A stretch of 39,912 bases of DNA from NCBI GenBank assembly GCA_014859345.1, contig JACUUL010000015.1, positions 1 to 39,912 of the forward strand, in the 5' to 3' direction. The stretch is from Thermoleophilia bacterium (GTDB taxonomy: Bacteria > Actinomycetota > Thermoleophilia > BMS3ABIN01). Shown in pieces: positions 11,834-24,730 of this stretch (position 1 is its first letter; the number at the start of each line of letters is the position of its first letter). The notes below the pieces were generated by a model that worked only from the letters and a program-made list of their open reading frames with translations, did not search any database and was not told the DNA's origin. Made by a program: the position numbers and the translations under genes.

Positions 11834-13531
11834 GTGAACATGAACCCTCACAGAATGCAATTCGATAAGAGGGATTCAGGCATCTCCCTGATCGGTGAGC
11901 TGGAATGGGGAAGCCACTTCTGCCAGTTCTACCAGACCAGGAATGACATTCTCGACATACTCCTCCCTTTCTTCCGGACAGGGATTGAAAAAAATGAGCT
12001 CTGCATGTGGGTCATCCAGGACAGTATCGATACCGCGGACATATTGGCGGAACTGACCGGGGCGGACTCTTTTTTCGCCAAGGCCGCAAAAGAGGGGAAG
12101 TTAAGGATAATCCCGATTGCCGGTTGGCTTGCCGGAAGACACGGCATGGATTCAGCCGTAGTTCCCTGGCTCGATGACGCCATCATGAACGGTTTTGACG
12201 GCCTGCGCCTGGCCTGCGAGCCGGCCGCTGAAGGCGATGATGATTGCCTGGATTCGGCAGATGAACTCCAGGTCATAAGCAGGCTGAACGTGCTTGCCAA
12301 CTTCCTGTATCCCCATGACAGTTACGACGCTCCGGGTCTCATGGAAATTGTCAGGAACCACGCTTTTGCGCTGGTCAGAAACGCCGGCGCGTGGGAAATT
12401 GTCGAGAGTTCCGAGGCCAAGGTCATCAGGCATGCCCTGAAGCGAAGCGAAGAGAAACTTCAATCCCTTTTCAGCAACATGTCCGAAGGCTTCTCTTACA
12501 ACCGGATCGTCGTGGATAAGGCCGGCGAGCCTCGCGATTATATAATGCTCGACGTCAACTACGCTTTCGAGCACCTAACCGGCCTGCGCCGCGAGGACAT
12601 AATCGGCAGAAGGGTCACCGAAGTGCTTCCCGGTATAGAGAGTGACCCGGCGGATTTCATCGGCAGATTCGGCCGGGTTGCCGTGACCGGAAAGCCCGAC
12701 CGCTTCGAGAGCTATTCGGTGCAGCTTGACAGATGGTATTCTTGCTCGGCCTTCTGCCCGCACAAGGGATTCTTTGCCGTGACTTTTTCCGAGATCACCG
12801 AGCGCAAGCTAGCCGAGGAGGAGCTGAGGAAGGCGTTGGCCCGCCTGGAGCAATCCAACTCGGATTTACAGCAATTCGCGTACGTGGCGTCGCATGACCT
12901 GCAGGAGCCGCTGCGGATGGTCTCCAGCTACGTGCAGCTCCTTGAACGGCGCTACGGCGACAAACTGGATGCGGATGCAGTCGACTTCATCAATTTCGCG
13001 GCCGACGGCGCCGAGCGCATGCGCGGCATGATACAGGACCTGCTTGCTTATTCCCGGGTAGGCACCCAGGGCGACCGGCTCACGCGTGTCGATTTCGAGC
13101 AGGTGCTCAGCGACGCCCTGGCCAACCTGCAGGTTACCATCAGCGAGTGCGGTGCCGAGGTAACCCACACATCGCTGCCGGAAGTATCCGGTGACCCCTC
13201 CCAGTTGACACAGCTGATGCAGAACCTGATCGGCAACGCCATCAAGTTCAGGGGAGATGACCCGCCACGCGTAACCGTTCAGGCAGAAGCAAAGAATGGC
13301 GAGTGGTTTTTTTCGGTAAAGGATAACGGAATCGGGATCGAGCCGGAATATGCCGAGCGCATCTTCGATATCTTCCAGCGCCTGCATAACCGCCTGGAGT
13401 ATCCGGGCACCGGCATAGGCCTGGCGATCTGCAAAAAAATCGTGGACCGTCACGGGGGCCGCATCTGGGCCGAAGCCCGGGCAGGTGGCGGCTCGATTTT
13501 CAGGTTTACGATTCCGGGTGGCGACACGTAA
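11834..13531 (+). CDS. MEDS-PAS sensor histidine kinase
   Basis: This is a soluble hybrid sensor kinase of 565 residues. A MEDS domain covers about residues 15-195 (WGSHFCQFY at 25-33). A PAS domain follows at about 205-325, ending in the usual SEITERK linker. Next is a HisKA dimerisation helix with phospho-acceptor His354 (YVASHDLQEP), as in phytochrome-like kinases. The ATPase domain has an N box at 464-468 (NLIGN), G1 DNGIG at 497-501, an F box (IFDIFQRL) and G2 GTGIGL at 525-530, so all catalytic motifs are intact. No membrane segment is present. The GTG at 11834 and the ATG at 11840 are alternative starts, neither with a strong ribosome site. The likely partner is the receiver domain of the next gene, 44 nt downstream. 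Confidence 0.92.
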   Translation: MNMNPHRMQFDKRDSGISLIGELEWGSHFCQFYQTRNDILDILLPFFRTGIEKNELCMWVIQDSIDTADILAELTGADSFFAKAAKEGKLRIIPIAGWLAGRHGMDSAVVPWLDDAIMNGFDGLRLACEPAAEGDDDCLDSADELQVISRLNVLANFLYPHDSYDAPGLMEIVRNHAFALVRNAGAWEIVESSEAKVIRHALKRSEEKLQSLFSNMSEGFSYNRIVVDKAGEPRDYIMLDVNYAFEHLTGLRREDIIGRRVTEVLPGIESDPADFIGRFGRVAVTGKPDRFESYSVQLDRWYSCSAFCPHKGFFAVTFSEITERKLAEEELRKALARLEQSNSDLQQFAYVASHDLQEPLRMVSSYVQLLERRYGDKLDADAVDFINFAADGAERMRGMIQDLLAYSRVGTQGDRLTRVDFEQVLSDALANLQVTISECGAEVTHTSLPEVSGDPSQLTQLMQNLIGNAIKFRGDDPPRVTVQAEAKNGEWFFSVKDNGIGIEPEYAERIFDIFQRLHNRLEYPGTGIGLAICKKIVDRHGGRIWAEARAGGGSIFRFTIPGGDT

Positions 13532-13575
13532 AGCACGGCCTGGTCCGGCCGAAGGCAGACCCCGAGGGGACATGA

Positions 13576-16500
13576 TTGGCAACTGATAATGACACACAAG
13601 GATTGCATCCGGTGGAGATCCTGCTCATCGAGGATAACCCCGGCGATGCCAGGCTGGTTGAGGAGTTCCTTTCCGAAGCCTCCGGCGCCGCGTTCGATTT
13701 TGCCTGGGCCGACCGGCTGGACAAGGGACTCCAGATGGTGGCTGAGGGCAACTTCGATGTCGTGCTTCTCGACCTGGAACTGCCGGACAGTCTCGGGCTG
13801 CCCACCGCGGAGCGGGTCTTGAAATCCGCCCCGGACACTCCCGCCATCGTCATGACCAGCCTTGACGACAAGGAACTGGCCATCTCGGCGGTCAAGAAAG
13901 GCGCCCAGGATTATCTGGTCAAAGGCTTTTTGGAGCCCTCCACTTTGGTCAAGTCCATAAATTACGCTATCGAACGGCAGCGGGCCCAGAAAAAGTTGCG
14001 CGAGTCGGAACTGATGTACCGCACCCTGTTCGAGCAGTCGCCGGACGCCATCATCGTGATTGACTTCGAGACCGGCCTGCCCATGGATTACAATGAGGCT
14101 GCCTGTCTTCAGTTCGGATGCTCGCCCGATGAGTTGTCCAAGACGAAACTCGCTGATTTCACTGTTCCTGAAACCGCGGAGGATACTGCCAGAGCTCTGG
14201 AGGAAATCAGGCACAAAGGCCACGCGACTTTTGAAACCAGGCACAGGAACAAAGACGGCGGCATCCGCCATGTTCATGTGTCTGTCCAGGCCATGGACAT
14301 CGATGGCCGAAATGCCGCTCATTGCATCATCCACGACATCACCGAGCGCAAAGAGGCCGAAGAGGAGCTCGGGCAAAGCGAAGCCCGCCTGGCAAGGTCT
14401 CAGGAAATCGCGCACCTGGGCTCCTGGGAGCTCGATCTGGAAAGCAACGCGTTGACTTGGTCGGACGAGGTATACCGGATCTTCGGGCTGGAACCGCGGG
14501 AATTCGAGGCCACCTACGACGCGTTCCTCGAGGCGGTGCACCCCGACGACCGGGCGGCCGTGGATGAAGCGTATTCCGGATCGATCCGCGATGGCCGGGA
14601 CTCATATGAGATAGAGCACCGGGTAATGCGCAAGAGCGGCGAAATACGGTTTGTCCACGAAAAATGTGAGCACATCAGGGACGCAAGCGGGAGGATCATC
14701 CGGTCCGTCGGCATGGTGCATGACATCACCGGATACAGGCAGGCCGAGCATGCGCTGGCCGCGGCCGTAAATCAATCCCGCCGCCGCTTCCGGGAAACCG
14801 ACGCCTTGCTCAGGGCGACCCGGTCGGTAGTAGAGAACCAGGATTTCGAGGAGGCGGCCCGTCCGATTTTCGAGGCCTGCAAGGAGTTGATCGGCGCCAC
14901 CAGCGGCTACGTTGCCCTGCGGGATAGCCAGGGGAATGAAAACAAGGTCCTCTTCCTGGATCCCGGGGAGATGAGCTGCGATGTCAACCCCGGACTGCCG
15001 ATGCCCATCAGGGGTTTGAGAGGGCTGGCATATGACAGCGGTAATACTGTAATAGAGAACGATTTCCTGAACAGCGAATACACCGATCTGCTTCCCGCAG
15101 GCCACGCGCCCCTTGATAACGTGATGTTCGCGCCTTTGATGCTGCTGGACGAACCTGCCGGACTTCTGGGCCTGGCCAACAAACCCGGAGGCTTCAACCA
15201 GAACGATGCGCACCTGGTCAGCGCGTTCACGGAGTTGATGTCGCTGGCCCTGGCCAACAGTCAAGCCTACACTTCCCTGGAAAAGAGCGAAGAGCGTTTC
15301 CGCTCGATCACCGCTTCGGCCAGCGACGCCGTGATTTCAGCGGACAGCCGGAGCCGGATAGCCACCTGGAACGAAGGCGCCCGGGCCATGTTCGGCTACA
15401 CTGCCGAAGAGGCAGTCGGCCAGAAGCTGTCAATGCTGATGCCCGAGCGTTTCCGGGACGGACACCAGCAGGGGGTGGCGAATTTCCTGGCCACGGGAGA
15501 ACCGCGCATCATGGGTGACTCGGTAGAGCTGATGGCAATGGCCAAGGATGGCAGGGAGTTTCCCATCGAGCTGTCGCTGTCCACCTGGCAATCCGGCGGA
15601 GAAACCTACTTTGGGAGCATCATCCGGGACATCACCGAGCGCCGGCGCTTATTCGAAGAAACCGAGCAGGCCCGCCGTCTCAGCGAAGCCCTCAATAACA
15701 TCAGCGTTATCCTTAACTCCACGCTGGACCGGGACGAGATCATGAACAAGTCCATGGCGGCGGCGATGGATGCCCTTCAGGCGGATTCCTCCCAAATCGC
15801 CACGGAGGAGAACGGTTCCCTCAGGATTCAGTTTGCGCAGGGTCTGGCTTCTGATACGCCGCCGGGTTCGCGCTTGAAGCCCGAGATGGCGCCGGTAGCG
15901 GCCCTGGCTCGGGAGGCGCAAAGGACGGTTGCCATATCTGATGCTTTCAATGACGACCGGTTAGACCGTGGAGCCGCTCAGCGCCTGGGCATCGGCGCCG
16001 CGATCTCCACACCGATCCTGAGAAAGGACCGGATTGTCGGCGTTATTTCTTTCTTGTTCGACACCAGGAGGGAATTTGGACCTGCCTATTTCGATTTCAT
16101 GGACAGGTTCTCAAACCTGTTCTTCATGTCCCTGGAGAACGCCAAGCTTTACGAAACAGAGAGGGAAACGAGGTCAATGGTGCAGAGTTACGCGGTGCAG
16201 CTTTCCCTCCTCCATGATATCGGCCTGGCGCTGAACCGGGAGACCGACTGGTCCAGACTGCTTAATATAGTAGTCGAAAGCGCGGCCAATCTTACATCGG
16301 CCGGGCTGTGCATGATGACCCAGGTCGGCAAAGGCGCCACGTCTCCCGCCGTCATTTATCACGCGCCATGGTATCAGAAACAGCTTTTCGGCCTGGAAGA
16401 CGCTATTCCTCTTCTGCATCGGCGGTTGTGTGAGATGATCAGCGACAGCGACCGGTATTGTATCAGGGTCGGTAATCTGGACAGGCTGCCATGGTTCCCG

Positions 16501-17430
16501 GAAACCAATCTGGACGTCCGCGAACTGCTGGCGGGTATCCTCAGGGATGCCCGCGGCCGGATCAGGGGACTGATCATCCTCGGCGACAAGGCCGGTGGCT
16601 CCTCATTCAGCAAGACAGATCAGGAACTGGTGGAACTTCTGGCCGGCCAAAGCTCGGTGGCTCTGATCAGCGCCGAGAATTTCGAAAGGGAGCACTATGT
16701 GGCCGAAACCCTGCAGACATGCCTGTTGCCGGAGGTGCCGGTCCGGGACGACCTCGAGATTGGGCTCATTTACCGTTCCGCCAGCAGCGCCGGCCGGATC
16801 GGCGGCGATTTTTATGACATCATCGAGCTGACGCATGACGTCGTGGCAGTGGTGGTTGGCGATGTCTGTGGCAAAGGTTTGAGCGCCGCCAGCCATACAG
16901 CCATGGTCAAGTTCATGCTCAGGGCGTATCTTGAAGAGGGTCGGCCGCCCGGGGATTGCCTCAGCCTGCTCAACAATGCCGTGTGCAAGAATCTGGCCAC
17001 AGACAAGTTCATCACCCTGGGCCTGGCGGTGGTCGAACTGGAACGGGGCGTCATCTCATATGCCCTGGCCGGCCACCCCCTGCCTGTTATAAGCCGCGGG
17101 AATCAAGTGATCGAACTCGATGTCCCCAATACCATCCCTCTGGGCGTGATACCCGGTTATGACTTTCCTTCGCTGGATACGGGCCTGTCTCCGGCCACCT
17201 CGCTGCTTTTATACACGGACGGGGTCACCGAGGCCAAGTCGCCTGATGGGGAGCAGTTCGGACATCACCGGCTAATGTCCGCAGTTTCCTGCGACCTCAA
17301 GGCCCAGCCGCTGGCGCAGGAAGTCCTGAACAGGGTAATCGAGTTCTCCCAAGGTGGTCTGAGCGACGATGTGGCGTTGCTGGTGCTTCAGACGCCCGCA
17401 GCGTATCCGGATGGAGCAGCCGCGACCTAA
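13576..17430 (+). CDS. Receiver-controlled multi-sensor PP2C phosphatase
   Basis: This 1284-residue soluble protein has many domains. An N-terminal receiver (1-130) has acidic pocket Glu19/Asp20, phospho-acceptor Asp66, Thr94 and Lys116. PAS domains lie at about 147-265 and 272-395, GAF at about 410-560, PAS at about 575-690, and GAF or GAF-like domains at about 704-865 and 878-1030. A SpoIIE/RsbU-type PP2C domain runs from about 1042 to 1280. Its motifs GGDFYD (1076-1081), GDVCGKG, TDGVTEAKSPDGEQFG and DDVALLVL are all intact. The start is a TTG at 13576 preceded by GAGGGGA; the ATG at 13572 is out of frame and stops at once. It is probably phosphorylated by the upstream kinase, linking MEDS sensing to serine dephosphorylation of an unseen target. 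The last two domains resemble those of the 8356 gene product. Confidence 0.93.
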   Translation: MATDNDTQGLHPVEILLIEDNPGDARLVEEFLSEASGAAFDFAWADRLDKGLQMVAEGNFDVVLLDLELPDSLGLPTAERVLKSAPDTPAIVMTSLDDKELAISAVKKGAQDYLVKGFLEPSTLVKSINYAIERQRAQKKLRESELMYRTLFEQSPDAIIVIDFETGLPMDYNEAACLQFGCSPDELSKTKLADFTVPETAEDTARALEEIRHKGHATFETRHRNKDGGIRHVHVSVQAMDIDGRNAAHCIIHDITERKEAEEELGQSEARLARSQEIAHLGSWELDLESNALTWSDEVYRIFGLEPREFEATYDAFLEAVHPDDRAAVDEAYSGSIRDGRDSYEIEHRVMRKSGEIRFVHEKCEHIRDASGRIIRSVGMVHDITGYRQAEHALAAAVNQSRRRFRETDALLRATRSVVENQDFEEAARPIFEACKELIGATSGYVALRDSQGNENKVLFLDPGEMSCDVNPGLPMPIRGLRGLAYDSGNTVIENDFLNSEYTDLLPAGHAPLDNVMFAPLMLLDEPAGLLGLANKPGGFNQNDAHLVSAFTELMSLALANSQAYTSLEKSEERFRSITASASDAVISADSRSRIATWNEGARAMFGYTAEEAVGQKLSMLMPERFRDGHQQGVANFLATGEPRIMGDSVELMAMAKDGREFPIELSLSTWQSGGETYFGSIIRDITERRRLFEETEQARRLSEALNNISVILNSTLDRDEIMNKSMAAAMDALQADSSQIATEENGSLRIQFAQGLASDTPPGSRLKPEMAPVAALAREAQRTVAISDAFNDDRLDRGAAQRLGIGAAISTPILRKDRIVGVISFLFDTRREFGPAYFDFMDRFSNLFFMSLENAKLYETERETRSMVQSYAVQLSLLHDIGLALNRETDWSRLLNIVVESAANLTSAGLCMMTQVGKGATSPAVIYHAPWYQKQLFGLEDAIPLLHRRLCEMISDSDRYCIRVGNLDRLPWFPETNLDVRELLAGILRDARGRIRGLIILGDKAGGSSFSKTDQELVELLAGQSSVALISAENFEREHYVAETLQTCLLPEVPVRDDLEIGLIYRSASSAGRIGGDFYDIIELTHDVVAVVVGDVCGKGLSAASHTAMVKFMLRAYLEEGRPPGDCLSLLNNAVCKNLATDKFITLGLAVVELERGVISYALAGHPLPVISRGNQVIELDVPNTIPLGVIPGYDFPSLDTGLSPATSLLLYTDGVTEAKSPDGEQFGHHRLMSAVSCDLKAQPLAQEVLNRVIEFSQGGLSDDVALLVLQTPAAYPDGAAAT

Positions 17431-17436
17431 TTATCC

Positions 17437-18876
17437 TCAAGGGAATGAGGAACGGAGAGCGACTGCCGCCTCTTCCTCCAGGCCGTCAAATCCTCCCTCG
17501 CCCTCTCCAAAGACCCGCCGGGCCACCGAGAACTCCTGGCTGAATCCATAGATGGTGACGGTATCGGCAGCAACGAGCTTCATCGGCTCCCTCAGGATGT
17601 AGAGAACGTGAAGGGTGCTGGGTGATTCGCTGTTGCCTTCAAAGCCACGCAACCCTCCGGCTCCGGTGGAGCCGGCATCCATGAAGACCGTGCCATCACG
17701 GACGGCGATGCTCTCCTTGTGCGTGTGGCCATGAAGCACCACCGGCACCCTGCCGGCAAGCTGTCCGGCCATTTTGGGATCATGCACCGCGATCATGAAA
17801 GGCGCCGGTTTTTGTTCATCAACCTTGCGGGCGATCTTCTTCGCGGCCTCGGCCAGCTGCCTGTCATCGGCAGGTTCGACCCCGGGGCCTGCCGACGCGA
17901 TGTCGGCAAATCCGCCCATAGTGATGCCGGCAACGGTGACAAAGCCGTCATCGAGCACCGTTACTCCGGGGAACTCGTTCATCGCGCCGGTGATCGTGGG
18001 CGTGTCGTGATTTCCCGCGACCCAGACATATGGCGGAGGCAGCGGTAAATAGGTTGATAGATATCTTGCTTCAAAAGTGGTGCCAAGCTCGGTTGAGTCA
18101 CCGCTATCGACAATGAGATCCACCCGGTAGAGATCGGCAACGGTTTTAACCAGGCCGGCGGCGGCGGTGCTGGCATGCATGTCGGAGATGTGCAAAACCC
18201 GGATCGCGTCATCGCCGGGCGCGTCCGCAGGCAGCCCGTGCAGCTCGTTAACCGTGAGACGCAGACTTTCGGCAATCTCCGGAATGCGGTTCTCGTAAGC
18301 GTCCAGATTGGCCAGGGTCTGCTGGGAAAAGTCGAAGATTTCCGGAGCGTAGGCGAGGTTGCCGCTAAAGCGCGGTTCCCTGAATCCCGACGTGTCATAC
18401 GTCGCGTAGGCGGCGCCGGCGACCAGAGCAGCCGAGGCCAGCCCTACCGCTGCCCCGGCGAGAGCCCAGCGCCAGCGGCGCCTGAGGAGCGCCGCCACCA
18501 GGCCACCGGCGACAGCCGCCAGAGCGCCAGCTCGAATCAGAAATGAATTAAGTTCGCTGCTTACCGGCTCGCGCCAGTTAACCATGGCCTGCCGGGATGG
18601 TGAGCCGGCATCTGTCAACTCCTCTATTTCAGTGACGGTTATCTCCTTGAGGGAGTAAACAGCAGCGGCCGGCGCGATATGGGTGTTCGCCTCCAGGGAG
18701 CCAGCGGGCGGCAGTTCCACGACGGACTTTCCCTGCCAGGACGGCTTGAGAGAAAATTCCACGCGCACGGGCCCCACCAGCACCTCTGTGGGCGATGTCA
18801 GGATCAGGGAGAAGTAGCCGGCCAGAGCGGCGAGAATCACCGTTACTGCCGCGGTGATGATCTGCATGGTCTTCAT
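17437..18876 (-). CDS. Membrane-anchored calcineurin-like metallophosphoesterase
   Basis: This 479-residue protein carries a calcineurin-like catalytic domain in its C-terminal half. The metal-ligand motifs occur in order: HISDMH at about 229-234, GDS near 259, GNHD near 288-291, AVHDP around His365 and GHTH at about 383-386. The N-terminal part has one membrane segment at about 5-27. An extracytoplasmic region of about 100 residues follows, then two close membrane segments at about 114-160. The phosphoesterase domain therefore probably faces one side of the membrane behind a three-segment anchor. The substrate cannot be read from the sequence; lipid-linked or nucleotide phosphates are typical for related proteins. 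The ATG at 18876 begins a normal signal-anchor; the frame is open upstream to 18942. The gene ends 6 nt from the convergent phosphatase gene. Confidence 0.88.
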   Translation of the reverse strand: MKTMQIITAAVTVILAALAGYFSLILTSPTEVLVGPVRVEFSLKPSWQGKSVVELPPAGSLEANTHIAPAAAVYSLKEITVTEIEELTDAGSPSRQAMVNWREPVSSELNSFLIRAGALAAVAGGLVAALLRRRWRWALAGAAVGLASAALVAGAAYATYDTSGFREPRFSGNLAYAPEIFDFSQQTLANLDAYENRIPEIAESLRLTVNELHGLPADAPGDDAIRVLHISDMHASTAAAGLVKTVADLYRVDLIVDSGDSTELGTTFEARYLSTYLPLPPPYVWVAGNHDTPTITGAMNEFPGVTVLDDGFVTVAGITMGGFADIASAGPGVEPADDRQLAEAAKKIARKVDEQKPAPFMIAVHDPKMAGQLAGRVPVVLHGHTHKESIAVRDGTVFMDAGSTGAGGLRGFEGNSESPSTLHVLYILREPMKLVAADTVTIYGFSQEFSVARRVFGEGEGGFDGLEEEAAVALRSSFP

Positions 18877-18952
18877 GGTTCCATGAACAATGTAGCAGAA
18901 GGAGGCAGATCGTGTAACCCCGCCCCCCTGAAAATCCGGCATATGCCTGAAT

Positions 18953-18979
18953 AAAAAAAGAGAGCCGCCGGAGCGGCTC
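18953..18979 (-). terminator. Rho-independent terminator of the TPATG protein gene
   Basis: On the minus strand, GAGCCGC (18973-18979) pairs with GCGGCTC (18962-18968) around a 4-nt loop, followed by TCTTTTTTT. The stem is perfect and G+C-rich with a clear T-tract. It lies about 30 nt after the stop codon of the small gene and separates it from the metallophosphoesterase gene. Confidence 0.88.
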
Positions 18980-19010
18980 CCTAATATTCATCTATTTTTT
19001 GTATCAGCGC

Positions 19011-19229
19011 TTATGCCCTGGATCTCCTGGCCAGGAGATATCCAGCGCCGATCATGCCGGCTCCCGCGACGGCAAATAGTGCAAGATCAATGCCGGTAGC
19101 AGGTGTGCCGGGAGCTCCGGGAGCGCCGTAACCAACCTGGGCGTACGCTGTGACATTGAGCGCCAGCACCAATGTGGTGGCAACGACAGTACCTAGAACA
19201 AACAACAAACCAATCCTTCTCTTGCTCAT
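19011..19229 (-). CDS. Very small secreted protein with sortase-like TPATG tail
   Basis: This 72-residue protein has a signal peptide (1-30, ending AYA), a 15-residue Gly/Pro/Ala-rich segment, the pentapeptide TPATG at 42-46, one hydrophobic helix (about 47-66) and a basic tail ending RRSRA. That is the layout of a cell-wall sorting signal, with TPATG instead of LPXTG. If a sortase cut after Thr45, only about 15 residues would be displayed. It may instead stay in the membrane as a two-helix peptide. AGGAGG 5 nt before the ATG at 19229 is a strong ribosome site, and the gene has its own terminator and a TATAAT upstream, so it is probably well expressed. No sortase gene is in the window. Confidence 0.75.
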   Translation of the reverse strand: MSKRRIGLLFVLGTVVATTLVLALNVTAYAQVGYGAPGAPGTPATGIDLALFAVAGAGMIGAGYLLARRSRA

Positions 19230-19290
19230 ATCCACCTCCTCTCACGCATCATGCCATTCGTGGGTGATCAATCTTTTCTTGTTTAACAGG

Positions 19291-19349: not shown

Positions 19350-21110
19350 CTATCCGTTTTCAACCTCGAGGCTGCTTTCCCTTTTACCCGATAACCTGTC
19401 CAGTAAACTCTCGATATGTCCCTTTTGGGGCGGCACCACCTCGTATACCAGGAACTCTTCGACATTGCCCGATGCCAGGGAAAAAGGCAGCAGGCCCCAA
19501 AAATGGCCATAAAAACCGGCATGGGCGGCAAAACTCGTCACCCTGATGGGCAAAACACTTCCGTAACTAATCGTTTCGACAAGTTTCACCTTGTCCTTGA
19601 GCTCATCAGAAAACAGCCGCGGATCGGCTAAGGGAGACTGAATGATCACGTCCCCGGCCGGAACTTCCGTATCCTCCGGCAGCTGGGTGAAGCCCTGCTG
19701 TTCCATGTAATATCTGAATCCGAATTCACCAACGTACCAGAGACGGCCGCCCCCGGCGGCCGTCTCCATCCCGATTCCGGCCGCGTCCCTGCCGGCGAAT
19801 TCCTTGTTCACGCTGGCCAGATGGTAATCGGCGCTGGCTAACAGAAGGCCCATTACAGCAGTGGTGAAAACTCCAGTCCACAGGATATTCCGCAATACCT
19901 CCGGCGATTGACTGAATCTTTCTCCGGCCAGGCGGATAAAAAAAAGGATCAGTGGCGGAAACAGGGGCAGCAGATACCTGACGGAGGCATAGGGGAGTAT
20001 CACGGTCACATAGAAAAGGACCCCGGCCAGCCACAGCACGAGCAAAAGATCTTCCGCCGGCCGTTCCCGGCCGAACTGCCATGCCTGTCTGATACGGGAC
20101 CACGCATCGGCAAACAGGCGATAAAGCATCAGCATGCCAAGGGGCATTAGAACGATGGTCATCACGGCGGCGGCGGTTCCATAACCGCCATAAAAGTACT
20201 GGAAGAGGATAGCCACCCACAACGGCGCCAGCAGGAACTGATAAACCGTGAAGTCCCACTTGCGCGCCAGCAGCACTCGCATGACCACGCCAATAAATAT
20301 CACAGCCCCGGCTACAATCATCGTGGCGCTGGCGCCTTTCTGCACAATCGAATGCCAGGCCATGGGCTCTCCTACCCCGTACGAAAACCGCGGCAAGTCA
20401 CCGATCACAGCCAGATGCCAGACCGCATAGCTAAGAAAGGCGCTTATGGGCAATGCAAAAGGCAGGATCGAGAGCAGCGAAAGCTTGCGGCGCAAGACGA
20501 CATAAGCCAGCAACAGCGGAATGACGCTCAGGACCTGATACGAAGTGAAGACCCCGATGGTTATGACCAGGCCGCAAAGAGCCATCATGCCCTGACTGCG
20601 GCGCTGAAGTCCGTATACATACAGGGTCACCCCTGACAGCCAGAACGCGACGCCGGGGACATCGCTCATCAAGCCATGGGACATCACCATCATGCCCGGG
20701 GTGGCCATGAGCAACATCGCGGCCAGCATGGCATAGTTCGTGTAACGGCGGGCCAGAAAGTACATGGCTACGGCTGCTATCAGGGGAAAGGCAAGAAAGC
20801 CCGCGTGCAGCACGGGTTCTGACTCGGCGCCCGCCAAATTGATGAGAAACGCCAGATAGGACGAGATCAACGGTGGATGTGTGTCCAGAAATAACTCGTT
20901 CTCCTGGCCAAAGAACGTATAATCGGTGAGCGTCAGGGCCGTCGGGTCTGTCTGCCGGGCGCGGGCCAGCTCCAGAAATCCGGCATCGTCCATATGAAAG
21001 GGCCGGTTGATGAACGGCAGCGTCAGGAGCAGCGTAAACAGAACGACAACGGCAATCTCGGCCTTGATGGACATGCCGCCTGCCAGCATTTTTTTCACTG
21101 ATAACTTCAC
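19350..21110 (-). CDS. GT-C membrane glycosyltransferase (ArnT/PMT-like), copy 1
   Basis: This 586-residue protein has about eleven to twelve membrane segments. After the first, the extracytoplasmic loop contains the acidic pair HMDDAGF, and later THPPL, as in GT39/ArnT-type enzymes that transfer sugars from polyprenyl-phosphate donors outside the membrane. The C-terminal 150 residues form a soluble extracytoplasmic domain (LWYVGEFGFRYYMEQQGF, then GFYGHFWG). It is a paralogue of the next gene upstream, sharing the same order of loops and the EF.(F/W)RYYME motif. The longest frame starts at a GTG at 21110. ATGs at 21089 and 21074 are alternatives, and the latter has AGG 4 nt upstream and starts just before the first helix. 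The acceptor is unknown. Confidence 0.87.
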   Translation of the reverse strand: MKLSVKKMLAGGMSIKAEIAVVVLFTLLLTLPFINRPFHMDDAGFLELARARQTDPTALTLTDYTFFGQENELFLDTHPPLISSYLAFLINLAGAESEPVLHAGFLAFPLIAAVAMYFLARRYTNYAMLAAMLLMATPGMMVMSHGLMSDVPGVAFWLSGVTLYVYGLQRRSQGMMALCGLVITIGVFTSYQVLSVIPLLLAYVVLRRKLSLLSILPFALPISAFLSYAVWHLAVIGDLPRFSYGVGEPMAWHSIVQKGASATMIVAGAVIFIGVVMRVLLARKWDFTVYQFLLAPLWVAILFQYFYGGYGTAAAVMTIVLMPLGMLMLYRLFADAWSRIRQAWQFGRERPAEDLLLVLWLAGVLFYVTVILPYASVRYLLPLFPPLILFFIRLAGERFSQSPEVLRNILWTGVFTTAVMGLLLASADYHLASVNKEFAGRDAAGIGMETAAGGGRLWYVGEFGFRYYMEQQGFTQLPEDTEVPAGDVIIQSPLADPRLFSDELKDKVKLVETISYGSVLPIRVTSFAAHAGFYGHFWGLLPFSLASGNVEEFLVYEVVPPQKGHIESLLDRLSGKRESSLEVENG

Positions 21111-21165: not shown

Positions 21166-22815
21166 TCACCAGTCAAGACGGTTCACGGTTATCTCATCCA
21201 GTTTCTCCCGGGAAAAAATCACCGGCACGGGCCCGTGAGGGTTGCCATAAAAGCCGGCCCCGGCCCAGGGGTTCATTATTCTCACCGGGAAACGGTCAGC
21301 GGGCTCGATCCTTGATTCGACCGTGAAGAAGCCTTCGGGAAGCGGAGCAACCAGCCCCTGAGTATGAACCTCGGAAACTATCACCAGATCGCCCGGCCGG
21401 GCTTCTGAATTTACCCCAAGGTATTCGAATCCGTTTTTCTCCATATAGTACCGCCACTCGAATTCGCCCAGCGACCAGACCTTGACCTGGCTGTTGCCGT
21501 ATTCCTGTGCCATCCTGCCCGCAGTTTCACGGTAGAGTCCGGCAGCGCGGTAATCTGCGATCGAGGCCGCCAATGAGAACAGCCCTGTAACCAGGATGGT
21601 GGCCACGATGAAACCGGTCCTCACGCGCGGCAAACGCGGCCACAGCTTCTCGGCCTCCCTGATAAACAGCAAAACCACCGGCGCAAAAAGAGGCAGCAGA
21701 TGACGCACCGCGATAAAGGGGAGCGACGATATCACATAGGCCGACAGGATCGCGGCAAACCAGGCTGACAGGAAGATATTATCAGCGGACAGCTTCCTCT
21801 GCTTTATCAGAATCCAGCCATCACTTGCAGCTCCGGCTGCAAAGCCGTAGATTATCAGAAATCCCGCGCCCGCCAGAAGCGCCACAATAACCCCCTGAGC
21901 CAGATTGAGATCACCCTGGCTCAAAAAGTAGACTGCGGCCCACGTGACCACGGGCGGGATCGCGATGAAACCTGCAAGAAGATCAATCTTCCGGCGTAAA
22001 AAGGCTATCCAGACAGAGACCGGAAATATTATGGCGCCTCCCAGAAACGTCAAGATGTCCCTTGCCTGCAAGTCAAAATTAAGCTCCGCCACGTACGAGA
22101 CGGCGGGCGGGTGGCCTAAACGGAGCTGGACGTAATAACGCCAAAAGGCATAAACCGCCAGCGGTAGCAAGAACGTAAGGAAGACAGGCAACCGCCGGCG
22201 GTAGAGCAAGGCATACAGCACGAGCAAGGGAACCAGGGCGATGGCCTGGGCGAAGGTCAGGATGTCCGCCGCCATGACGAAGCCTGAAAGCAGCAGCAAC
22301 TTCCAGCTGTACCTGTCCACCCCCCGGATAAACAGGGCGGTCGCCGCCAGCCATAAGGAAACGCCTGGGAGGTTTCCCATGACCGTATGGGACATGACCA
22401 TCACGCCGGGAGTTAAAACAAACAGAAGGGCCGCCGCCAGCGGCTGCTGCCCGGTAAAACGGCGCCCAAGTGAATACATCGAGACCGCGGCGATAACCGG
22501 GAAAAAAAGATAAGCCGTGTGTATCAGAGGCTCACTGACGCCGCCGACGCGGATGAACAGGGACATGTAATAGCCGGTTAGAGGCGGATGCCTGAATGGG
22601 TACTTGGGATAGAACCTGCCGAGGGCGCTGTAATCCTCAAGGCGCAGCTTTCCCGGCTCGCGGGCCAGAACTTCCGCCTGTTCGACGAAATCGCGGTCGT
22701 CCCAGCGAAATGCCTGATTTATAAATGGAACCGTGACCGCCAGCGTCACCACGATCAGGATGATGATGTCCCTGACCGGGGCTTCTCTTAATTTATCCAG
22801 ACGTAATCTTGCCAT
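21166..22815 (-). CDS. GT-C membrane glycosyltransferase (ArnT/PMT-like), copy 2
   Basis: This 549-residue polytopic protein shares the plan of the gene downstream. It has a first helix, a catalytic-type loop RWDDRDF near residue 37, an HPPL motif, about eleven membrane segments, and a C-terminal extracytoplasmic domain with LGEFEWRYYMEKNGF and AGFYGNPHG. Such enzymes use lipid-linked sugars to glycosylate lipids, glycans or proteins at the outer face of the membrane. The two copies are separated by 55 nt and were probably formed by tandem duplication. The start ATG at 22815 has no close ribosome site (AAGGGAG is about 15 nt upstream), so translation may be coupled to the hydrolase gene that ends 55 nt before. 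Confidence 0.87.
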   Translation of the reverse strand: MARLRLDKLREAPVRDIIILIVVTLAVTVPFINQAFRWDDRDFVEQAEVLAREPGKLRLEDYSALGRFYPKYPFRHPPLTGYYMSLFIRVGGVSEPLIHTAYLFFPVIAAVSMYSLGRRFTGQQPLAAALLFVLTPGVMVMSHTVMGNLPGVSLWLAATALFIRGVDRYSWKLLLLSGFVMAADILTFAQAIALVPLLVLYALLYRRRLPVFLTFLLPLAVYAFWRYYVQLRLGHPPAVSYVAELNFDLQARDILTFLGGAIIFPVSVWIAFLRRKIDLLAGFIAIPPVVTWAAVYFLSQGDLNLAQGVIVALLAGAGFLIIYGFAAGAASDGWILIKQRKLSADNIFLSAWFAAILSAYVISSLPFIAVRHLLPLFAPVVLLFIREAEKLWPRLPRVRTGFIVATILVTGLFSLAASIADYRAAGLYRETAGRMAQEYGNSQVKVWSLGEFEWRYYMEKNGFEYLGVNSEARPGDLVIVSEVHTQGLVAPLPEGFFTVESRIEPADRFPVRIMNPWAGAGFYGNPHGPVPVIFSREKLDEITVNRLDW

Positions 22816-22870: not shown

Positions 22871-24730
22871 TTAGCGTGGAGATTTTCCGGTTAACCGGGA
22901 AAAGGCTTCATATGAGGGCTTGACGGAAAAATCCTCCCGCACCAAGCCGACCTTGTAGTTCGTGTCGTAAGCGTACCACCAAAAGACCTTCTCGATTTGG
23001 GGAAACTGCGATGCCTCCCTGTAAATCATGTTAAGGGCTTCCGCCTGGCCTGCCTCACCCAGGTGGCCCGCGTAAGCATCGCCATTATCAGAACTGGCAT
23101 AAGTTGTCTCGGTCAGCCAGACTCTCCTGTCATCGTCTCCATAACGGGTCGTAACCTCCACGACATTCGCCAGCCGGTCCCGGTACCATAACGGATCAGG
23201 GAAAGAATACTGGCGGTACATATCCGGCAGCTGGCCTTGAGCGGTTAACATGAACCATTGATAAGTATGGATATTCAGTATGTCGAAGTACTGGTCGATC
23301 ACGCCCGGGTCGCCAGGATGTCTTGCCTGGATCTCCTCATAAAGGTCCTCGACTCCCTGCCACAGGTATTGCCTCCAGCCATTCGGGTCCACCCTGCTGG
23401 TGGCGTATGCCGGAGGCACAGCGTCGGCGACCGCTCCGTTGAGCACAAGGCAGTCCGGGCAAACGTCCTTTACGGCATCGCGGCCCGCCTTCAGCAGATC
23501 CACGTACTGTTGAAGGGTTCCCTGCCAGCCGGAGAAGAATAACTGATCATTTGATTTGTATATCTTGCCAACATTAAATTCATGCCCTATCTCATAATGC
23601 TTTACCCCCTGATCCGAAGGCCATCCCATCTCCCTTGCAAGTTCACCTCCCGGTTTGTACCTGTTGACAGTCTCGGCGACAAATCTCGCGTAGTCTTCAT
23701 TTTTCTCAGGCGGGTAAGAGTAGGAGTCGAACTCGCCCCGGTGTTCCGGCGATACCGCCCAGTTGGGAGCGTAGACCAGGCCCGCGACAAGTTCAATGCC
23801 CCGATCATGCGCGGCGATGGCAAGCGCGTCGGTGGAGTCCCAATAATATGATTCCGGGCCTTCCGGCTGAATATCATTCCAATGCAACATCGCTCTTGCC
23901 GTATGCGCGCCGGCAGCCGCCATTTTGTCGAAGTTATCGTTCATATTTTTAGAGATAGCCCTGCTCGTCAGAGCCTCCCGCCCCAGCAGCACGCTGCCGC
24001 TGTAGACGCCATTCCCTTCATCCATCAGCCAATCCCAGGCTTCTGGATTATCACTCGTCCATCCCTCTGGTTCCACATCGAAGCTTTCCGACAGGATGAC
24101 TTCGCCAGTCCGGTGATCGGTCACCTTGACGTCGTCAAAGAGGGTATGCGCGCCTCTGACTCTCAGCGCCGCTTTACCGGAGCCTGCATCTACGGGATAT
24201 CCTTCCGCGGGCGACTTGCGAGCGCCATCAATGAAAACATGGATTCTTTCTTCGATTACCTCAGCCTTGACCGCGTACCAGCGCCCGAGTTCGAATCCGT
24301 CCGGTTCATAGGCGCTTACGAGGTATGACTGGATTGATGAATCGGTGAGCACCCATCTGTCCTTGTTCGGAAAGATGCCCAGATTATATTGGGCGCCACC
24401 GCCGCTCTGCACAAAAGTGACCCCGGACGTGGCGGTGCCTTCGGAAGTCCTCAGGATCTTCTGGCGGAATTCCAGGGTGAAATTCTCAGGCAGGCTGGCC
24501 ATTTCCTGGTGCCAGGCACGATTTATCCGGAAGATAGCGGAAATTCCGGTATTTACACCATAAAATTCCGCATCCCGAATCAGCGGTTTGCTCGTCTTTG
24601 GAGAATTCCCGGGATTCTGAACCTCCTGGGTCCCGGCGCCGGCACAGGCTACGGCCAGTATTGCGAATGCCTGCAGTAAAAGAACAGAGCCCATCGCTCG
24701 AAGGATCAGTGCGAATCTTTTGCTTTTCAC
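22871..24730 (-). CDS. Secreted clan GH-A glycoside hydrolase-like protein
   Basis: This 619-residue exported protein has an N-terminal hydrophobic signal ending at Cys29 in LAVAC, a lipobox-like but imperfect site. A beta-sandwich of the LamG/sugar-binding type follows at about 80-205. A (beta/alpha)8 domain covers about 260-615. The barrel shows the clan A pattern seen in GH39-like enzymes. A proposed acid/base Glu384 lies in HYEIGHEFN after strand 4, and a proposed nucleophile Glu541 in VWLTETTYA after strand 7. The residue before Glu384 is His383 where nearly all clan A enzymes have Asn. The start is a GTG with no Shine-Dalgarno, but TACTTT lies 8 nt upstream. It heads a minus-strand group with the two glycosyltransferases, suggesting synthesis and trimming of one surface glycan. 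Confidence 0.8.
   Translation of the reverse strand: MKSKRFALILRAMGSVLLLQAFAILAVACAGAGTQEVQNPGNSPKTSKPLIRDAEFYGVNTGISAIFRINRAWHQEMASLPENFTLEFRQKILRTSEGTATSGVTFVQSGGGAQYNLGIFPNKDRWVLTDSSIQSYLVSAYEPDGFELGRWYAVKAEVIEERIHVFIDGARKSPAEGYPVDAGSGKAALRVRGAHTLFDDVKVTDHRTGEVILSESFDVEPEGWTSDNPEAWDWLMDEGNGVYSGSVLLGREALTSRAISKNMNDNFDKMAAAGAHTARAMLHWNDIQPEGPESYYWDSTDALAIAAHDRGIELVAGLVYAPNWAVSPEHRGEFDSYSYPPEKNEDYARFVAETVNRYKPGGELAREMGWPSDQGVKHYEIGHEFNVGKIYKSNDQLFFSGWQGTLQQYVDLLKAGRDAVKDVCPDCLVLNGAVADAVPPAYATSRVDPNGWRQYLWQGVEDLYEEIQARHPGDPGVIDQYFDILNIHTYQWFMLTAQGQLPDMYRQYSFPDPLWYRDRLANVVEVTTRYGDDDRRVWLTETTYASSDNGDAYAGHLGEAGQAEALNMIYREASQFPQIEKVFWWYAYDTNYKVGLVREDFSVKPSYEAFSRLTGKSPR

Follow-up and report, generated by a model that had tools for sequence, protein, structure and literature searches.

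The question raised by this locus is what role could be served by a protein of 72 residues in which only some 15 residues would remain between a signal peptide and a sorting-type tail. The window, which is the whole stretch of 39,912 nucleotides that was analysed, is contig C82 of a source assembly of 2.08 Mb in 122 contigs (genome label G000). An earlier note had described the product of 19011-19229 as a miniature sortase-type protein with a TPATG motif, and the open reading frame was found exactly there, on the minus strand. The gene and its signals are organized as follows.

19011..19229, minus strand: mini-peptide gene with an ATG start, 72 amino acids, stop codon at 19011-19013, sortase-type layout
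19232..19241, minus strand: strong Shine-Dalgarno sequence GAGGAGGTGG, 5' of the peptide ATG
19140..19229, minus strand: predicted signal peptide, residues 1-30, ending in A-Y-A, with presumed cleavage (sequence and alignment of relatives)
19095..19139, minus strand: predicted mature segment QVGYGAPGAPGTPAT, residues 31-45, with predicted boundaries
19092..19106, minus strand: TPATG sorting-type motif, residues 42-46 (in the family alignment T-G is invariant and P is not)
19014..19091, minus strand: hydrophobic helix and RRSRA tail, residues 47-72 (sequence, TIGR01167 and alignment)
18959..18982, minus strand: intrinsic-terminator-like hairpin with a T run, 10-pair stem, 28 nt past the peptide stop

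The translated product of 19011-19229 is MSKRRIGLLFVLGTVVATTLVLALNVTAYAQVGYGAPGAPGTPATGIDLALFAVAGAGMIGAGYLLARRSRA. The mature product would have 15 residues, as first read, provided that A-Y-A is the signal-peptidase site, which was placed by a simple rule, and T-G the sortase site. This segment is rich in Gly, Ala and Pro and contains two Thr, one of them at the cleavage site, and no Ser; among the complete members of the family it is the shortest, jointly with that of G005, and the lowest in Ser and Thr. Polymerization as a pilin was set aside because the segment has no Lys. The strong ribosome site claimed for the gene was found in its place, and GGAGGTG precedes the start chosen for each of the 16 complete members, with a script for choosing starts that favours this sequence. 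With regard to the claim that the gene has its own terminator, the hairpin and its T run are well placed, but the scan gave two such sites against 1.5 expected by shuffling, a number that is not above chance. A terminator-like hairpin was found by script 3' of the peptide gene in six of the 16 complete members.

The single-sequence search of 99 genomes (E up to 0.01) gave matches in 16, namely 14 of the 19 genomes of the family, the window's own included, and two others. The latter, in G087 and G075, proved on reading to be unrelated longer frames and were discarded. A profile built from 13 members (alignment A1) matched 17 of the 19 family genomes at 4.6e-8 or better, 13 of these 17 being in the profile by construction, while the profile search gave no peptide in G013 and G018, whose genomes are 90% and 78% complete. 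Two full copies are present in G006, a contig-end fragment in G014 and a 46-residue frame without a start in G016. Five residues are invariant in the 13 aligned rows (T45, G46, G56, G63, and R68), and T-G is also present in G012, in both G006 copies and in G016. The motif reads TPxTG in seven of the 16 complete members (G000, G003, G004, G005, G008, G011, and G017) and lacks its Pro in the other nine. By a simple rule that seeks such ends, the hydrophobic N-terminus ends in A-x-A in 14 complete members and in S-x-A in two. Their mature segments range from 15 to 70 residues, with 2-41 Ser plus Thr, and in the longer relatives Ser and Thr are abundant (up to 41 of 69). Uncorrected pN/pS was 0.13-0.31 in five comparisons of short members, and 0.52 and 0.74 in two comparisons of long Ser-rich members. 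It is confirmed that the mini-peptide is a real and conserved gene, which is more than chance would give.

The genes that surround the peptide gene in the window are the following.

19350..21110, minus strand: membrane glycosyltransferase of the PMT_2 type (PF13231), immediately upstream of the peptide gene and on the same strand
21166..22815, minus strand: second PMT_2 (PF13231) membrane glycosyltransferase (Pfam)
22871..24730, minus strand: putative glycoside-hydrolase-like protein (sub-cut-off Pfam matches only; relatives in the G005, G008, and G009 loci)
17437..18942, minus strand: metallophosphoesterase-domain protein, downstream of the peptide (six other genomes have relatives in their stretches)

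The two PMT_2 genes scored 40.4 and 49.7 bits with PF13231, above its cut-off of 26.1; this is a broad family, and no NCBIfam model matched either protein. By their domain they are candidate protein O-mannosyltransferases, the transfer of mannose to protein being a putative activity. Neighbours were counted for the 17 peptide copies that lie in fetched stretches, the contig-end fragment of G014 being excluded. A PMT_2 gene lies immediately upstream in the same orientation in 14 of them, with 10-190 nt between the open frames, and it is the convergent next-door gene in two more, both in G006 and one of them a 194-residue frame. For the start-less copy of G016, the surrounding 18-kb stretch contained no PMT_2. 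A metallophosphoesterase like that of the window is present in seven of the 17 stretches (G000, G001, G005, G009, G011, G015, and G017). The proximity to a glycan cluster and a metallophosphoesterase that had been read from the window alone was thus borne out, by the PMT_2 gene next door to most copies and by the metallophosphoesterase in these stretches. In addition, two large proteins encoded side by side at 11834-17430 of the window resemble sensors when their translations are read by eye; the end of one looks like that of a histidine kinase, and the end of the other like that of a PP2C/SpoIIE phosphatase.

A second kind of neighbour was found in part of the family. An ECF-sigma/zf-HC2 fusion with an adjoining sortase is present in the peptide locus of G001, G004, G005, and G015, and in that of G008 the sigma gene is present and the contig ends within the sortase. 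Genes for such a fusion beside a sortase were located at L084:5380-6951, L083:6268-7752, L089:5315-6808, and L094:13966-15408; the zf-HC2 domain was called by Pfam on the L084 protein, and by eye these proteins seem to have a membrane segment and an outer part. When the C-terminal part of the sigma protein was used as the query, nine of the 19 family genomes matched (the outer part only in G003, with stops in G017), and the window genome and nine others did not. The sigma/sortase pair is present without the peptide in G013 and G018. A strict peptide-sigma-sortase module was rejected as a rule on these two grounds, sigma being unmatched in 10 of the 19 genomes. Since PMT_2 is kept beside most copies and sigma/sortase beside some, the link to PMT_2 is the rule and the link to sigma/sortase an option. 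Proteins with LPKTG and LPNTG tails adjoin the operon sortase in G005 and G015, so this sortase may have other clients. It was also observed that a single open frame of 616 residues in G013 (L160:4478-6328, on C39) has matches to the sigma protein as well as to the sortase, as a fusion of the two would.

Regarding the tail itself, the window peptide scored 18.7 bits with the NCBIfam model TIGR01167 (LPXTG_anchor), above its cut-off of 15.9, and 14.3 with Pfam Gram_pos_anchor, below its cut-off of 20. In a six-frame control the cut-off of TIGR01167 was also passed in nine of 14 well-known control genomes, and consequently this model alone cannot show a sorting signal. Among three relatives of the same family, one scored above the cut-off (22.1) and two below (15.8 and 14.6). 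In the window genome TIGR01167 gave seven places at E up to 10, and four of them were above the cut-off: the mini-peptide, a tail on C88 that reads GMPNTG, and two LPSTG tails, one on C96 and one on C52. The best of these matches (L048, G000:C88:25715-25801) is the GMPNTG tail of a 207-residue frame. From the 34 TIGR01167 loci that were read, eight had no clean tail, six were the mini-peptide and 20 were others, whose tails were LPxTG in 18 cases and MPxTG in two. A genome-wide DNA scan for P-A-T-G codons was uninformative (229 matches vs. 287 for the reversed control).

The earlier note had proposed a search of the genome for a sortase and for further tails of this type, and had regarded the lack of both as the result that would speak against its reading. 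One sortase was found, on C9 (PF04203, 8.5e-33), together with the three other tails over the TIGR01167 cut-off, which are LPxTG-like (MPNTG, LPSTG, and LPSTG). No second TPATG tail or peptide copy was found in the window genome by the single-sequence search at E up to 10 or by the family profile. The check thus does not refute the earlier reading, and the interpretation as a sortase substrate is partly supported: it gains from the sortase and the other tails, and loses from a tail that is unique in the genome, a Pro that is not conserved and a sortase with Asp in place of its catalytic His.

This last trait is general in the family. In the search with PF04203, which matched only three of the 14 control genomes, 31 sortases were over the cut-off in the 19 family genomes, with at least one in each. 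The count omits five duplicate loci, a sub-cut-off G004 fragment with stops (L078) and the unrecovered class loci L077 and L081. The class relatives used for comparison belong to other families and were drawn from 40 chosen class genomes, 29 of which had a match, and four of the matches had no loci. In the alignment, the column of the catalytic His contains Asp in all 31 family sortases (L001:1066-1884 and 30 others among L055-L080 and L126-L137) vs. His in all 31 class relatives. The Cys is kept in 30 of the 31 family sortases and in all 31 class relatives, and the Arg in all 62; the window genome's own sortase has both Cys and Arg, with Asp replacing the His. Another Asp directly follows the Cys position in all 31 family sortases. 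The family sortase that has Thr instead of Cys (L080, G009:C16:25227-25580) lies on a long branch, and it is perhaps a non-enzymatic copy.

In the sortase tree a single branch (support 100/98) sets the 31 family members apart, and they form three subgroups, the first with the window's own sortase and the second with the operon type. When family sortases were aligned to solved ones by HMMER, the Asp stood opposite the His in the five chains listed, of which 5go5 and 5go6 have nearly the same sequence, and likewise in the two alignments listed from another set. The His of a G-x-G-H motif 18 columns upstream is kept in all 31 family sortases and in 25 of the 31 class relatives; as a guess, it might be a candidate substitute for the missing catalytic His. 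The window genome's sortase and that of G005 scored 138.6 and 111.4 with the class E model NF033747, below its cut-off of 160, and 89.4 and 74.4 with the general sortase model TIGR01076, above its cut-off of 39.35. Among the NCBIfam subfamilies, class E gave the best match for both of these sortases. A single-sequence structure model of the BMS3Abin01 (G004) sortase was set aside as poor (mean pLDDT 50.9). A 2006 paper states that no residues other than His, Cys, and Arg are absolutely conserved among all sortases (PMC1569441). The Asp found in all 31 family sortases touches this claim. An Asp-type sortase, if active, would inform both the sortase mechanism and sortase-based ligation tools. 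No report of these peptides or of an Asp-type sortase was found among the titles and abstract openings of open-licence papers.

Across the class, 299 genomes were searched with the family profile, and at least 57 of them matched at E up to 0.001; the family accounts for 17 of these. Outside the family there were at least 44 matches in at least 40 genomes, some of them in frames of 500 residues or more and probably due to chance; the best, among the matches listed, was 3.6e-8 in one genome. The surroundings of 18 of these matches (the 15 best and three others) were fetched, with genes called by a simple script. All 18 frames are short, 87-200 residues as called; 13 carry LPFTG as their motif, two have VPFTG or FPFTG, and the remaining three have LAxTG. 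The next called gene encodes a Pfam-confirmed Wzy_C (O-antigen ligase) protein in eight of the 18 (G137, G283, G048, G266, G281a, G274, G281c, and G230); in G146 it is a truncated relative of the Wzy_C gene without the domain, and in G023 Wzy_C is 2.4 kb away. Bac_transf is the next gene in seven of the 18 loci (six Pfam-confirmed), and a sortase lies within the fetched stretch in four (G048, G219, G281c, and G147). Short LPFTG proteins adjoining Wzy_C and/or Bac_transf genes can be seen in L235, L236, L238, L240, L245, and L250. Because the scores are weak and in low-complexity sequence, we take these class-wide short LPFTG proteins only as a probable parallel to the window family and not as proof of kinship, the count of Wzy_C neighbours being one without a background rate.

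The gene and its conservation are established, as are the gene order, the layout of signal-like N-terminus, T-G, helix and basic tail, and the presence of a single sortase in the genome. For the role of the peptide, our tentative reading, to which we give somewhat less than an even chance, is that it is a dedicated minimal sortase-type anchor substrate of a surface-glycan pathway and carries glycan. The peptide would be exported by Sec and cut by signal peptidase I after A-x-A, and its C-terminal helix would hold the exported form in the membrane. A sortase of the Asp type, which would have to be active in anchoring, may then cleave the bond between the invariant T and G and attach the very small mature product to the envelope, where the stub would be the small carrier of a sugar built by the neighbouring PMT_2 enzyme. 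We consider the role of anchor stub the most likely because of the pairing with PMT_2, the Ser/Thr-rich relatives, the parallel with Wzy_C and the precedent of GspA, LcpA, and SrtA. The occurrence in 17 of 19 family genomes, the invariant T-G, the sigma/sortase pair in the peptide locus of some relatives and the precedent of sco3736-3738 also count in its favour.

Several observations stand against it. The mature part has just two Thr in the window organism, which speaks against a glycan carrier there. The Pro is lost in nine of 16 members, whereas all 20 other clean tails in these genomes are LPxTG or MPxTG. The sigma/sortase pair is not beside the window peptide, and it occurs in G013 and G018, where no peptide was found. 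Moreover, TIGR01167 is unspecific, the sortase has no catalytic His, PMT_2 is broad and the class matches are weak. The fuller claim, that the family sortases have swapped His for Asp and yet work, with a relaxed T-G motif, so as to fix a tiny glycosylated peptide as a glycan-anchoring stub, is in our view rather unlikely. If it were true, sugar would be anchored through a sortase-cut stub and not directly to peptidoglycan or lipid. A sugar-carrying stub would be the sortase counterpart of the link between exosortase and exopolysaccharide, and a new way to anchor a surface glycan.

The alternative that survives best is that the peptide, with its signal peptide removed or not, stays in the membrane, is never cut at the tail and works through its helix as a small membrane accessory, a subunit or stabilizer, of the PMT_2 enzyme, with a tail that merely resembles a sorting signal. 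We judge it somewhat unlikely, but it agrees with the position of most invariant residues in the helix and tail (G56, G63, and R68), with the dispensable Pro, with a PMT_2 adjacency that is stricter than that of the sortase, and with family sortases devoid of the catalytic His. It leaves the invariant T-G at the outer membrane edge, which fits the need of a sortase, with no obvious subunit role, and sits poorly with a window peptide above the TIGR01167 cut-off and with short class proteins that mostly carry LPFTG (13 of the 18 fetched).

Alternatively, the peptide could be an ordinary displayed one, anchored by sortase and unglycosylated, acting as an element of a coat or of adhesion, the glycan genes sharing its timing and not being its modifiers. 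The sortase-anchored chaplins of Streptomyces coelicolor, as described in part of PMC5148588, and the NCBIfam model of small LAXTG proteins are precedents, and the Gly/Ala/Pro-rich mature segment and the strong ribosome site would suit such a product. We find this quite improbable, given that the mature length of 15 to 70 residues is unlike that of a structural subunit and that the PMT_2 gene order is stable. A released signalling peptide, whose tail is cut by sortase or another protease and which is read by the nearby sensor genes, would account for the very short mature product and for the large proteins, sensor-like by eye, near the locus in the window and in several relatives; it is very unlikely, since neither the length nor the sequence of the mature part is conserved as a signal should be. 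The suggestion of a sorting-tail helper found no support in the analysis. Finally, a spurious or decaying frame, to which the start-less G016 copy, the motif eroded in half of the members and the weaker purifying selection in long members (0.52 and 0.74) might point, has next to no probability and is already refuted for the family by the occurrence in 17 of 19 genomes, the low pN/pS in the five short-member comparisons, and the retained Shine-Dalgarno sequence and gene order.

With respect to known systems, the small size had been called unusual for a sorting substrate, which is partly right: NCBIfam already has a 54-position model, NF058583 (LAXTG motif-containing small protein), for proteins that are likewise small and dominated by a sortase-type tail, and therefore small size alone is not new. 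This model is not among the matches of the window peptide at E up to 10; two of three relatives score 13.5 and 13.0 against its cut-off of 65 and the third gives no match, and the motif is TPATG in the window and TPxTG or Pro-less in the relatives. The interest lies in the glycan setting, which is conserved, and in the Asp-type sortases.

The anchor-stub reading has a close likeness in GspA of Actinomyces oris, a protein anchored by SrtA that receives its sugar from LcpA, an LCP-family transferase encoded next door; its glycosylation is proposed to come first, and its monomer runs near 25 kDa (PMC6381275). The window, in contrast, would have a 15-residue stub, beside PMT_2. The PEP-CTERM/exosortase (EpsH) system, as presented in a section of PMC1569441, similarly ties sorting-tail proteins to exopolysaccharide loci. 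It belongs to bacteria with an outer membrane, its exosortase is not a sortase homologue and its substrates are diverse proteins, in contrast to one conserved stub. The class E sortases of Streptomyces and their LAXTG chaplins, in the part of PMC5148588 that deals with them, resemble the present case in that class E is the best subfamily match and both are actinobacterial. The family sortases are, however, below the class E cut-off and have Asp where SrtE1 has its active-site His251, which follows strand beta-4 in that part of the source (PMC5148588), and none of the four tails of the window genome is LAXTG. Lastly, the genes sco3736-3738 of S. coelicolor, encoding an ECF sigma factor, an SrtE-like sortase and a membrane protein, are given in an excerpt of PMC5882110 as being among the most up-regulated in a mutant without polyprenol-phosphate-mannose synthase. 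By gene description, they are an ECF sigma, a sortase and a putative membrane substrate that respond to the loss of polyprenol-phosphate-mannose (PMC5882110). The sigma protein of our family is distinguished by its fusion to zf-HC2 and an outer part, and its locus by having the PMT_2 genes in it.
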